Source: Chrysophaeum taylorii (lineage: Eukaryota; Sar; Pelagophyceae; Pelagomonadales; Pelagomonadaceae). Taken from it: a DNA stretch of 64,000 bases. Under the pieces are notes generated by a model. That model was not told the origin of the DNA. It ran no database searches and worked only from the letters and a program-made list of their open reading frames with translations. Shown in pieces: positions 43,185-48,574 of this stretch (position 1 is its first letter; every line of letters starts with the position of its first letter). The translations under genes were made by a program, and so were the position numbers. The stretch spans positions 1 to 64,000 of the forward strand of contig JAQMWT010000563.1 in NCBI GenBank assembly GCA_029834535.1. Reading direction: 5' to 3'.

Positions 43185-44390
43185 TCACTCGTCATTGTCA
43201 AGGTAGTAGTCGAGGATGTGGGCCATGCGGCGGCGGAGGTCCTCGGCATCGGAAAGAAAAGATTTTGGGATGGCGCTGTTGAGTAAAGCAACGAGGGCGT
43301 CCGCTTGGTCGTCGGAGGAGGCGAGGCGACGCCAGAAGCGGTCGGGGATGGAAAATAGGGTGAGGACGACGTGGGCGGGCGTCGGGAGGTTGTCCGTGGG
43401 CTCGACGATGCCCAATTGCTGCGCCGGCTTGTCCATCGAGCGCCGGAGGGCGTCGGTGTTGTGACAGCAGGATGTATCGACGATCACGGCGCGAGGTATA
43501 GCGCCGGCGGAAACGAGGCGGTCGACGCGACGAGCGGCGTCCGTCGGCGTCGCCAGCGCGTCGTCGAGGCGCGTCTCTTCGAGGGCGTCGCGGAGCGCGA
43601 GAGGCCGGCGATCGCGAAGGTACATCGCGTGGTCGAGGAAGAGCAATTGGGCGCCGACGGGAGACCCGACGAGACTTCGCTTCAACGCTAAAAGGCCTCG
43701 CGGTTTTCCCGCGTCGCGGTCCACCGATCGCATCGCCGCGCACAGCTGAGAGACGGGAAGCCAGTGGGAGGGATACTTGAAGCGCGCCGTGTCCATCAAC
43801 AAGACGCGGTCAGAGCCGGCGTGGTACCCCCCCAACGGCGAGAAGTGGCCTTCCCCCGTCTGGCCGACGCCGCGTCGATCGTACGACGCGATCAAAAATT
43901 CCGTTGGGTTGTCCGGCGGCTGCGCGCTCGTGCGCCGAATCACGTCCCTGACCGACTCCTCGAGATGCTCGCAGTCCCCGCGGATCACCTCCACGTCCAA
44001 CGAGTTGCACCGACCCGTGCACGCGAGCAGGTCCAACGTAAGTCCCTCGACCTTGACGCGATCCAACGGCTTGCAGCACTCGAGGAGGTGCTCCGAGTAC
44101 CACCGCCAGGCGCCCTTCCACCGCCGCCCGGGGTCAACCGACAAAGCGTTCAGCACCATCACGAGCGACGCGAGCCCGCAATACGCCGGCTCTTCCTGGG
44201 TGTGGAACTGCTCGGCGAGCCGAAAATACGTCCCCATGCTCTGCGCGGCGAGCGCCTCGGAGAACAGCGCGAGCCCCTCGCTCGACGAAAACGCGATGGC
44301 GCTCTCGGGCAGCTTCCGACGATGGAACGTCTGCTGCTGCTGCTGCTGCTGCTGCTGGGACATGAGCACCACCATAAGCACACGAAGCAT
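43185..44390 (-). CDS. PCS: Phytochelatin synthase
   Basis: 401 aa. The catalytic domain makes phytochelatins from glutathione (gamma-glutamylcysteine dipeptidyl transfer) and binds heavy metals for detoxification. The papain-like triad is visible: Cys71 in EEPAYCGLASLVMVLNAL, His182 in GEGHFSPLGGYH and Asp200 in LLMDTARFKYP. His-Asp spacing of 18 and Cys-His spacing of 111 agree with plant PCS. The C-terminal half is a variable sensor region with scattered Cys (DTSCCHN). The N-terminus carries a poly-Gln run (nine CAG-type codons). In-frame Mets at positions 1, 6 and 10 leave the start uncertain. It is divergent from the selenocysteine candidate with 33 bp between ATGs. Confidence 0.93.
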   Translation of the reverse strand: MLRVLMVVLMSQQQQQQQQQTFHRRKLPESAIAFSSSEGLALFSEALAAQSMGTYFRLAEQFHTQEEPAYCGLASLVMVLNALSVDPGRRWKGAWRWYSEHLLECCKPLDRVKVEGLTLDLLACTGRCNSLDVEVIRGDCEHLEESVRDVIRRTSAQPPDNPTEFLIASYDRRGVGQTGEGHFSPLGGYHAGSDRVLLMDTARFKYPSHWLPVSQLCAAMRSVDRDAGKPRGLLALKRSLVGSPVGAQLLFLDHAMYLRDRRPLALRDALEETRLDDALATPTDAARRVDRLVSAGAIPRAVIVDTSCCHNTDALRRSMDKPAQQLGIVEPTDNLPTPAHVVLTLFSIPDRFWRRLASSDDQADALVALLNSAIPKSFLSDAEDLRRRMAHILDYYLDNDE

Positions 44391-44423
44391 ACACTACTTG
44401 TAGGGTAAGTAATATCATCAGTC

Positions 44424-45068
44424 ATGAAGGCCGGCAGCAAGAGTCTCAACAAGATTTGCATCGATGTCGTCTCGGACACTGTCTGACCCTGGTGCTCGGT
44501 GGGGAAGAAGCACCTAGAGCGTGCCGTCGCTGCCACGCAGGCAGACGTCGAAGTGCGCTGGCGGCCCTTCTTCCTCAACCCGAGCGCCCCCGAGGAGGGT
44601 ATCGAGAAACGCCGCTACTACGAAGAAAAGTTCGGCCGATCGCGCCTCGCGGCGATCGAGCCGAGGCTCCGCGAGGCCTTCCGGAGCGTCGGGTTGCCCT
44701 TCAGCCTCGGAGGACTGACTGGCTCGACGATGGATTCCCATCGCTTGATCGCTTGGGCAGAGGACGTCAGCCTAGACGCCCAGAACAAGCTCGTCGACGA
44801 GCTCTTTCGCAATTACTTTGGCGAGGAAAAGTTCATCAATGACCCCGAGGTCCTCGTGGCGGCCGCGACCAAGGCCGGCTTGGACGAGACCGCCGCCAAG
44901 AATCTCGTCGCCGACAAGACTAAGTACCGCGATCGAGTCGTGGCCCTGTACGACCGTTACGCCACTGGCGTCCAGGGTGTCCCCCACTTCATTATCGGTG
45001 ACGAGGCCATCTCGGGCGCTCAGCCTCCCGAAGTCTTCGTCGAAATCCTCAAAAAGTACCAAGGCTAG
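44424..45068 (+). CDS. DsbA/FrnE-like thioredoxin-fold protein, probable selenoprotein (UPWC)
   Basis: Reading from the ATG at 44424, codon 21 (44484-44486) is TGA exactly where the family has the first active-site Cys: SDTV-TGA-PWCSVGKKHLE replaces the usual SDxxCPWCxxGKxxLE. The frame is otherwise open to the stop at 45068 (214 aa counting UGA as Sec), with the helical insert and the cis-Pro loop GVQGVPHFIIG followed by ISGAQPPEVF, as in FrnE/2-hydroxychromene-carboxylate-isomerase-like DsbA proteins. Without read-through the product would lack the active site. An eukaryotic SECIS is required; a weak candidate is in the 3' UTR. Role: thiol-disulfide exchange, substrate unknown. A Cys-to-stop mutation or sequencing error is the alternative. 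Confidence 0.82.
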
Positions 45069-45089
45069 CTCCTCGGACCAAGCAAACCT

Positions 45090-45135
45090 CTTCTTCTTCT
45101 TCTTCTTCTTCTTCTTCTTCTTCTTCTTCTTCTTC
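45090..45135 (+). repeat. CTT microsatellite in 3' UTR
   Basis: Uninterrupted CTT/TTC units about 20 bp after the stop of the selenoprotein candidate. Confidence 0.9.
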
Positions 45136-45210
45136 GATCGCGCGACCGACATGACGACGCAGCTTCTTCGCTACCGCTCTTGCTGCTGCGCCTGAAATTA
45201 GAACTAAGAA
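45136..45210 (+). promoter_or_regulatory. Candidate SECIS element (weak)
   Basis: ATGA at 45151-45154 and TGA at 45193-45195 could form the non-Watson-Crick quartet. The strands between them, CGACGCAGC and GCTGCTGCG, pair at seven of nine positions around an 18-nt loop. The 45-nt quartet span is what SECIS elements use. Against it: no AA at the 5' side of the apical loop and an unclear lower helix. Listed because the UGA reading demands a SECIS in this UTR. Confidence 0.25.
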
Positions 45211-46212: not shown

Positions 46213-47053
46213 TTACACAATATCGGGGCAGCCCGTGCCTTCGAGCAGGCCTCTTTCGTAGTAGGCCATCGCGAGGTCGTTGTAGGCACGAGGATAATCT
46301 TCCCCGAGCATGAAGCCGTCGTGGAACTGGTGGTAAACCTCGGCCTGATGGAAGGGAAAGGCGGCAGTATCATAGACCCAGATTAGCCTCTTCCCGAGGG
46401 TATCCGGGTCGTTGCCGGTCCCCGCTTTGAGTCTCATGCCTTTGTTCAGCAAGACGTCGCTCGCCTCCTGAAAGAGGGGCGAGTCCATGCCACCCGGCAA
46501 CCCCATAAGGCTCCGGTACTCGGAGCCTCGATCGAGCTTGTCGGGTCGATCGCCTCTGTCGTCGAAGAGCTTAGCGTACTCTCGAGCGAACGCGGGCACC
46601 GCGTCCGGGGGCAGCCTCACGCCTGCGCAAACCCTCGGAAACGTCCTCGCGAGATCGACAGGGGGGTCAAAAATGGGTGTAAATCTGATTCTGACTTAGA
46701 GAGATTCGTCACGGGGCGAGTCACTTACTCACGACTTCGCCGTGGCCGAGCTTTCCGTAGTCCGCGACGCGCTGGAAGTTGTGGTAGCACACGAGGTCGC
46801 CGCCGCTTCCTCCGGCGTATCCCGCCCGTGCGGTCAGCTGGTCGTCGCCGCGGCCGAGCAATCGCTTCTCTGCCATCGCGAACTCGTGTTGCACATGCCA
46901 GAAACACCCTACGCCAAAGTAAACTTCGACGGCCTCCTGGACGGCCTGGACCGGCGTCGTGGCGGCGGCACCCAGCACGCTGATCAACCCGCGCCGGTCG
47001 ATCTGCAACGCGGTCGCCACGCAAGCGATCAACGAGACACGCAGCATCATCAT
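46213..47053 (-). CDS. msrA: Peptide methionine sulfoxide reductase A, two exons
   Basis: Exon 1 is 47053-46729 and exon 2 is 46622-46213, 244 aa in all. The 106-nt intron has a GTAAGT donor (46728-46723) and a CAG acceptor (46625-46623); splicing gives GHGEVVSVRLPPDAV in frame. It reduces methionine-S-sulfoxide. Seen: catalytic Cys in VGCFWHVQHEF (Cys, not Sec), RAGYAGG, VCYHN, YGKLGHGEVV in exon 1; KLDRGSEYRSLMGLPGGMDS and FPFHQAEVYHQFH in exon 2. The N-terminus (MMMLRVSLIACVATAL, then RRGLISVLGAAAT) looks like a targeting peptide with a twin-Arg stretch, so a plastid or secretory location is likely. A longer upstream frame lacks an ATG. Divergent from the PHD gene with 141 bp between. Confidence 0.92.
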
Positions 47054-47194
47054 CAACGACACGTCACCGCGATCGATCTCTAGCAGGGGGGAAAACAAAT
47101 AAAAGGGTTTTGACGAAGGAAACAAAGAGGGTTGGAACTTCTTCTTCTTCTTGGACAACAACAAGAAGCGTCCGTTGGGTTCGAGTTCAAAAAT

Positions 47195-48574
47195 ATGAAT
47201 CCCGGGTGGGGTCTGGTTTGGGTGAGCGACAGCGAAGCGCGCGAGCGGGGAATGCGGTTCGGCGGGGAGAGCGTGGCACGGCCACGCGCCGTGGGCATTC
47301 CCGAGTCGCAGGACGCGTGCGCGTGCTGCGGGCTCGCGAACTCGAGCCCCGACGACGACATCGTGTACTGCGACGGGTGCGACGAGGCGTTCCACCAGAG
47401 CTGCTACCACATTCCCGTGATTCCCGAGAAGGAGTTTTATTGTCGACGGTGCCTAGAGGAGCGGCAGGAGGCGGAACCAACGGATCTGGTGGCGCCGCCG
47501 CTGAAAGTAGATTCTGAAGAGGAGGACCTCTCGGAGAGTCTGCGACGGACTGGACTCGACTCGTGCGTGGATTTGTTTATCGTGGCCGCCACCGCCGACC
47601 GGTTCGGGACGCCCGTCGTGGGGTTAAAAGAGCTCGTCGCCGCGTGCGCGAGCCCGTTGCGGTCTGAATCCGCGTACGTCGCGATACTCAGACGCGGCGT
47701 CAAGGCCGGCAAGTGGTGCGTGAGCCTCGCGCGATCCTTGGAGGAGGCGGGCTTTGGGAAGGAGGCCTATTGGGTCTTGGGTGGCGAGACGGCCTGCGAC
47801 GACGACGTCGAGGCGAGGTCCTTCGAGAGGCTCGGGAACCTAGACCCTCGTCGTCGCGCGAGGGTTTTGAGGTGCGCTCTCGACGCGTCGACGACCGTGC
47901 AGCACCGCGTCCGGGACGTGCTGGCGACCACCGAGACGGGGCTGCGGCTCGAATCCTTTGGGGTGGATTCGGCCGGGAGATCATATTTTCTCTTCCAGGA
48001 CGCGACCGGTTCGTTTGCCGTGTGCCGCTGCGCGCTCGGCCAGACCCCCCCGCTTTCTGCTAAATCCAAGAAAATTTTCGCCGATTCCCGCAAGGCCAAG
48101 AAGAGACCCAAAAAGAAGCCCCTCCCCAAGCACCCTCGCTGGGAGACGATGGCGGCGACGGGATCGGAGCTCGGCGAACTCGCGCGTTCGCTGCGACGGT
48201 CCTCGCACGGCGACGACCTCTGGATTTCCTGCGTCCTCCGCGACAAGCTCGTCCCCCACTTGAACTCCACCCTGCTGGCCGCGAGGCTCGAAGCTAAGCG
48301 CCAGGAGCGCGCCCTGCGCAGGACCAAAGCCGCGCAGAAGGACCTCCTCATCGGCAACCATGCAGCCACCGCCCTCGACGGTCCCCGCAAGCGCAAGACG
48401 GTCGACTACAGCTTCAAGGACTTCGACTCCCAGATCGACGCGGCGACCAACGGTGACAAGGCCGCCAAGCGACCCAACAACAACCACCACCACCACCACT
48501 ACTTGAACGGCAAAGGCGGCCGGGCGGCCGGCCACTACGTCGCTCAGCCCCCCCCCCCAACGAGCTTTTTCTAG
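47195..48574 (+). CDS. PHD-finger protein with DDT/WHIM-like region
   Basis: 459 aa from the ATG at 47195; the upstream frame would need TTG. Residues about 41-87 are a PHD finger with complete Cys4-His-Cys3 ligands: CACC, YCDGC, FHQSC, YCRRC. PHD fingers read histone H3 tails. Residues about 107-285 resemble the DDT and WHIM modules of ISWI-partner proteins: CVDLFIVAATADRFGTPVVG, ARVLRCALDAST, and LRLESFGVDSAGRSYFLFQD in the place of the LGxDRxGRxYW motif. The remainder is basic with KKRPKKKPLPKHPR nuclear-localisation-like runs and a poly-His stretch. It probably belongs to a chromatin-remodelling complex (inference). Confidence 0.82.
   Translation: MNPGWGLVWVSDSEARERGMRFGGESVARPRAVGIPESQDACACCGLANSSPDDDIVYCDGCDEAFHQSCYHIPVIPEKEFYCRRCLEERQEAEPTDLVAPPLKVDSEEEDLSESLRRTGLDSCVDLFIVAATADRFGTPVVGLKELVAACASPLRSESAYVAILRRGVKAGKWCVSLARSLEEAGFGKEAYWVLGGETACDDDVEARSFERLGNLDPRRRARVLRCALDASTTVQHRVRDVLATTETGLRLESFGVDSAGRSYFLFQDATGSFAVCRCALGQTPPLSAKSKKIFADSRKAKKRPKKKPLPKHPRWETMAATGSELGELARSLRRSSHGDDLWISCVLRDKLVPHLNSTLLAARLEAKRQERALRRTKAAQKDLLIGNHAATALDGPRKRKTVDYSFKDFDSQIDAATNGDKAAKRPNNNHHHHHYLNGKGGRAAGHYVAQPPPPTSFF

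Follow-up and report, generated by a model that had tools for sequence, protein, structure and literature searches.

Does the TGA that stands in a DsbA/FrnE-like reading frame of Chrysophaeum taylorii, at the codon of the first redox cysteine, encode selenocysteine (Sec)? The frame, here frnE, is located in the window, i.e. the whole 64,000-nucleotide stretch analysed (positions 1 to 64,000 of contig JAQMWT010000563.1). An earlier note, written without knowledge of the source, had proposed a selenoprotein from a pelagophyte alga, and the source is indeed the pelagophyte C. taylorii. This proposal is supported by the codon position, the Sec machinery of the host, the relatives of frnE and a SECIS model built from hairpins of other C. 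taylorii genes. We are thus highly confident that frnE is a selenoprotein gene, encoding a small thiol-disulfide oxidoreductase of the DsbA/FrnE type in which the nucleophilic Cys would be replaced by Sec (U21-P-W-C24).

The frnE frame and its in-frame TGA

The frnE coding sequence (44424..45068, plus strand) consists of 214 codons plus TAG. An in-frame TAA read from the sequence (44406..44408, plus strand) bounds the frame on its 5' side, so that ATG 44424 is its first in-frame Met. Only one stop precedes the TAG at 45066-45068: the TGA at 44484..44486 (plus strand), which is the proposed Sec codon and corresponds to residue 21, the catalytic first Cys of C-P-W-C. The surrounding residues read SDTV-U-PWCSVGKKHLE, and the active site, U-P-W-C, agrees with C-P-W-C at the positions other than the proposed Sec. 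The second active-site cysteine (residue 24) is encoded by the TGC at 44493..44495 (plus strand). Frame translation thus bears out the earlier reading of an ATG at 44424, a TGA at the first Cys of CPWC and an open frame thereafter. The DsbA/FrnE-like fold attributed to the frame also holds: Pfam DSBA (PF01323) matches the read-through protein over residues 13-209 of 214 (115.7 bits, 2.9e-33), and the closest solved structures are SCO1869 (7.3e-24) and FrnE (2.3e-19). Both the Pfam match and the alignment of homologs indicate that the coding sequence is conserved on the two sides of the UGA.

Visual inspection of the sequence reveals no targeting peptide, and the protein is probably cytosolic; its activity, location and need for selenium would be those suggested by its family. 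Outside the recoding unit, a phytochelatin synthase gene (43185..44390, minus strand; PF05023, 9.2e-77) lies head to head with frnE; counted from the first ATG of either frame, the two starts are 33 bp apart. The two genes, both connected with metal or redox stress, may share a promoter. Minus-strand ORFs at 46213-47410, which by eye resembled an MsrA gene, were rejected, Pfam giving no match.

Homologs of frnE at the TGA column

The residue that homologs carry at the UGA codon, which the earlier note had left to an alignment, is Cys in nearly all cases. The set comprises 119 aligned database proteins, 22 of which begin past the TGA column while 97 reach it. Cys is found in 92 of these 97 (87 CPWC, 2 CPFC and one each of CAWC, CSYC and a gapped CR-C). 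Two others are gapped at the column, the deposited copy of frnE itself (P0002) and P0067, and three (P0030, P0062 and P0084), with N-termini unlike the family, have another letter. C21, P22, W23, C24 and G27 do not vary among 15 selected homologs and frnE itself, its Sec being entered as C.

All ten homologs of MMETSP origin are among the 22 late starters, as expected of ORF callers that would have met a stop at this column. A maximum-likelihood tree was built on the part after residue 44 (77 rows: the homologs up to P0075 plus the later late starters, short sequences being left out and P0067 counted in the late group). There frnE and four late starters, P0006, P0010, P0036 and P0038, form a group with support 98/68. 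The late-start label is clustered on the tree, with 9 changes vs 19 in shuffles, none of 500 shuffles being as low. The late starters nevertheless do not form one clade, and a land-plant model (P0071) starts late beside Cys relatives; a late start is therefore by itself no proof of a UGA. Sec is presumed in the late-starting relatives. A scan of viral contigs found no relatives of frnE.

The deposited gene model and other readings of the TGA

The top homolog match, P0002, is the C. taylorii protein CTAYLR_008027. It is identical to frnE except for 20 missing residues, VUPWCSVGKKHLERAVAATQ. The deposited model removes as an intron the 60-nt stretch that encodes them (44481..44540, plus strand; splice letters checked). 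The earlier note had expected gene callers to start at 44499 and lose the active site: a mechanical ORF list does give GTG 44499, but the deposited model reaches the same loss by splicing.

If that model were right, 44481-44540 would be a real 60-nt intron and the protein would have 194 aa and lack the active site. The stretch has GT..AG ends, the deposited protein lacks exactly its 20 residues, and the genome annotation used RNA-seq evidence according to the consulted part of the genome paper (PMC10366177). Against this, the length of the supposed intron is a multiple of three, which keeps the frame across it, and what it encodes is the best conserved part of the DsbA/FrnE family, including C21, P22, W23, C24 and G27; P0003 has TICPWCFVGKKHLEQAIAATK where frnE has TVUPWCSVGKKHLERAVAATQ. 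The donor, GTCTGA, is presumably weak, which also counts against a real intron. Moreover, the deposited model of a second DsbA-type gene (P0121) likewise lacks its UGA-bearing stretch. A genuine intron is thus very unlikely. Because family conservation is highest in the removed residues, we regard the annotated intron as an artefact of stop avoidance; 44481-44540 is most plausibly a false intron, whose removal costs the protein a conserved active site. The present reading corrects the deposited model accordingly.

That frnE is a pseudogene, or carries a sequencing error, with a Cys codon turned into TGA and no recoding, is less probable still. A single-base change, TGC to TGA, would suffice at codon 21, but this stop is the only one in 214 codons, it falls exactly on the redox codon and no further lesion accompanies it. 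The nearest relatives on the tree, as called, also lack the N-terminal part, and the SECIS-like hairpin past the frnE stop (see below) is contrary to either explanation. The faintest chance goes to a translation start after the UGA (GTG 44499, as in the mechanical ORF list, or a later Met), which would yield a protein lacking the redox motif: 22 of the 119 database relatives are deposited with such a start, but the first ATG of frnE lies upstream of the UGA, the N-terminus encoded from it is conserved, and the late start would cost the protein its first strand and its active site.

Sec machinery and other UGA genes of C. taylorii

Decoding of UGA 44484 as Sec calls for a host with the corresponding machinery, and genes for tRNA-Sec, eEFSec, SepSecS and SelD were found in the C. 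taylorii genome. The tRNA-Sec gene (C546:147174-147259) was detected by Infernal at 60 bits against a cut-off of 47, with an anticodon read as TCA from the alignment; ARAGORN missed it in the same genome. The eEFSec gene (L062) scores 444.8 bits to solved eEFSec vs 140.8 to the best EF-Tu; in the six-frame search this locus is below the selB family cut-off (204 vs 242 bits). SelD (L018, contig C581) is one long frame with, by eye, an oxidoreductase-like N-terminal part and no TGA within the match.

An in-frame TGA also occurs in eight other genes, at positions which we take to be the Sec place of each family: GPx (L010, L011), SelW-like (L014, L016), SelT-like (L015), MsrA (L055) and SelU-like (L059, L060). 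Two more, the SelU-like L061 and the DSBA-family L009, are UGA genes only if an intron is inferred. The three SelU-like genes differ in this respect: two contexts, RRPG-U-PMC and RRPG-U-PLC, are in frame, while that of L061, SYG-U-FFC, lies upstream in another frame. An internal TGA is rare in thioredoxin-family matches (1/43). Two loci were not counted: L058 (C435), a weak thioredoxin match whose TGA is apparently at an exon end, and the MsrA-like L056, which looks interrupted, with a TGA and a TAG in the matched stretch. In the SelW gene L014, part of the coding sequence and the 3' UTR are repeated directly past the stop, which results in two AUGAC hairpin candidates.

In the mechanism that we propose, UGA 44484 would be decoded by eEFSec and tRNA-Sec under the direction of the hairpin at 45151-45196. 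A SECIS-binding protein on its AUGAC/UGAA core would recruit eEFSec with Sec-tRNA to the UGA. In the finished protein Sec21, in place of the nucleophilic Cys, would attack disulfides (or become oxidised) and Cys24 would resolve the mixed bond.

A SECIS candidate past the frnE stop

The hairpin in question (45151..45196, plus strand) is composed of AUGAC, a stem II pairing GACGCAGC with GCUGCGCC (one A-C mismatch), a large apical loop and UGAA. Its AUGA is 82 nt from the frnE stop codon. The apical loop has UACC and no AA, and the helix below the quartet is indistinct. The candidate that the earlier note had drawn at 45151-45195, with a non-canonical loop, therefore exists as described.

Such a structure rarely arises by chance at this place. 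When the first 200 nt past the stop were dinucleotide-shuffled 3000 times, an AUGA hairpin reached the value of frnE (-11.3 kcal/mol or lower) once; -7 or better was obtained in 10, and in 3 with the strict AUGAC...[CU]GA[AC] core in addition. Across the window, both strands together, the strict core yields 9 candidates, of which the frnE hairpin is the second most stable. The most stable (-14.1 kcal/mol), on the minus strand in a large ORF, was set aside as a chance occurrence; the covariance model R1 described below does not report it.

The Rfam model SECIS_1 gave no match in the frnE 3' region, and none at E <= 10 in the whole C. taylorii genome. It was also silent at five control selenoprotein loci, so its silence at frnE reflects insensitivity and is not evidence.

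Shared hairpins and home-trained models

Seen by eye, the first control Sec genes have AUGAC soon past the stop, a stem closing right behind it and then [CU]GA[AC], and frnE is alike. A stem finder recovered this arrangement in 7 of 8 UGA genes, all seven within 160 nt of the stop (taken as TGA for L015 and L016); the hairpin of L010 failed the finder, and a forced fold does form it. With the AUGAC rule lifted, 4 of the 34 control genes yielded an AUGA hairpin, though in no case an AUGAC one; the scan covered 200 nt for controls (L009 then among them) and 500 nt for UGA genes. The 34 controls are what remains with L009 set aside and two further loci dropped as too short; their stops may be wrong where introns follow. 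AUGAC is present within 160 nt past the stop in 11/11 UGA genes vs 7/34 controls, a count that is partly circular because L009, L059 and L061 were recognised via the hairpin.

We then relied on a covariance model, R1, derived from seven other C. taylorii hairpins, frnE being left out. Each loop was replaced by 12 N because MAFFT misaligned the 3' arms of the raw hairpins. The eight stem pairs of R1 are paired in 71% of cells, vs 54% when shuffled and 30-45% when slid, although pairing was what the arms were selected for. R1 has a single match in the window (both strands, E <= 10), at 45148-45199 on the plus strand (19.5 bits, E 0.039). E-values are rough, and the hairpins used for training were selected by eye on their AUGAC core. 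A model trained without frnE thus singles out the very candidate that the earlier note had put forward. A second model, R2 (nine hairpins), ranks frnE at the top of 4 matches in the window (18.9 bits, E 0.054; next 12.4).

R1 was also run on 37 further loci (122 kb) taken as without TGA. At E <= 10 it matched two, L061 (17.5 bits, E 0.21) and L059 (16.6 bits, E 0.32), in each case about 45-57 nt past the stop of a SelU-like gene with an upstream TGA. A simple home-trained model thereby pointed to two SelU-like genes whose UGA had not been given to it. L060 escaped R1 in this search; its 16.6-bit match appeared only when 1.4 kb were scanned with the filters off. Run on the Sec loci, it produced an 18.1-bit match on the opposite strand of L009, in the score range of frnE, which looks spurious; R1 is therefore not free of false matches. 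For frnE the position in the 3' UTR and the form common to other UGA genes of the genome make the hairpin a candidate SECIS.

A possibly divergent SECIS form

A published SECIS search rule requires NUGA, then AA or CC 10-13 nt further on in the apical loop, then GA (PMC2375036, as given in the part consulted). With this spacing and our own stem filter, no candidate appears in the first 400 nt past the frnE stop. Of the 11 UGA genes, searched in the same way over the first 400 nt, SelW L014 alone has a candidate (1/11). AUGAC...[CU]GA[AC] hairpins are nevertheless found in the 3' UTRs of L009, L010, L011, L014, L015, L016, L055, L059, L060, L061 and frnE. The core sequence of these 11 hairpins is constant, and the 19-45 nt between its halves are variable. 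They may represent a divergent form specific to the lineage; the alternative is that some have been drawn wrongly.

A tentative generalisation, to which we give limited credence, is that selenoprotein mRNAs of C. taylorii, perhaps of pelagophytes, may use a divergent SECIS in which a fixed AUGAC...[CU]GA[AC] core closes stem II over a variable 19-45 nt, mostly with no AA or CC at the canonical distance, that of frnE being one of at least 11. If this is true, standard SECIS finders miss such elements, and the apical AA contact would be dispensable or replaced in the lineage. Confirmed, the hairpins would make it testable which part of a SECIS is really needed for Sec insertion.

A second DsbA-type gene

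L009 (G000:C81, DSBA family) entered the analysis as the 35th control, its matched stretch having no TGA. Its hairpin (locus positions 2116-2172) proved the strongest among those scanned, and its upstream TGA (locus position 1210) was spotted for this reason. L009 is a second DsbA-type Sec candidate, in which CTQ-U-PHG|YIGKK would be read across the inferred intron, without the second Cys of CPWC. A total of 111 homologs, the deposited copy of L009 included, were aligned: 107 begin past the Sec column and 4 have a gap at it, so that a residue at this column is seen in 0/111. The family appears to be marine algal and either Sec-only or always mis-annotated. With frnE, at least two DsbA-type genes of C. 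taylorii would be mis-annotated around a UGA.

Comparison with known Sec-containing FrnE/DsbA proteins

The earlier note had called frnE a selenoprotein of a new type. This is not supported, because Sec-containing FrnE/DsbA proteins are already in the literature, from marine metagenomes, Micromonas and other Mamiellophyceae, M. viride, Ciona and Branchiostoma. In the parts of these sources that we consulted, marine metagenomes are reported to contain DsbA with UxxC (PMC2398784), DsbA selenoproteins are described in Micromonas, Ciona and Branchiostoma (PMC2874816) and Sec-FrnE in Mamiellophyceae and M. viride (PMC6627142), SelenoDB lists "FrnE (DsbA)" (PMC3965025), and DSBA is named as one of the Sec families with the widest distribution in algae (PMC7539508). 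The last study attributes 82 selenoprotein genes of 33 families to the pelagophyte Aureococcus; C. taylorii is absent from the portion of its text consulted. The main text of the C. taylorii genome paper, as consulted, has no occurrence of "selen" (PMC10366177), and our literature search found no paper joining Chrysophaeum and selenoprotein.

The Cys proteins FrnE of PDB 5cnw and Streptomyces SCO1869 (3gl5) are homologous to frnE over residues 9-211, with their CPWC aligned on UPWC, and differ from it in having Cys where frnE has the proposed Sec. In the DsbA of Ciona, Branchiostoma and Micromonas, as in frnE, Sec replaces the upstream Cys of CxxC, and the Ciona and Branchiostoma genes were likewise mis-annotated around the UGA (PMC2874816, part consulted). 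According to the same source, the SECIS of these two animals have an apical AA or CC, whereas the C. taylorii hairpin departs from the published spacing. The FrnE of Mamiellophyceae and M. viride is, like that of C. taylorii, a Sec-containing algal FrnE oxidoreductase, likened here by description only from the part of PMC6627142 consulted; these are green algae and C. taylorii is a pelagophyte. From this comparison with the literature it follows that frnE, judged on its sequence, is a new, mis-annotated member of a known family, and it would add a pelagophyte to the Sec-FrnE/DsbA proteins.
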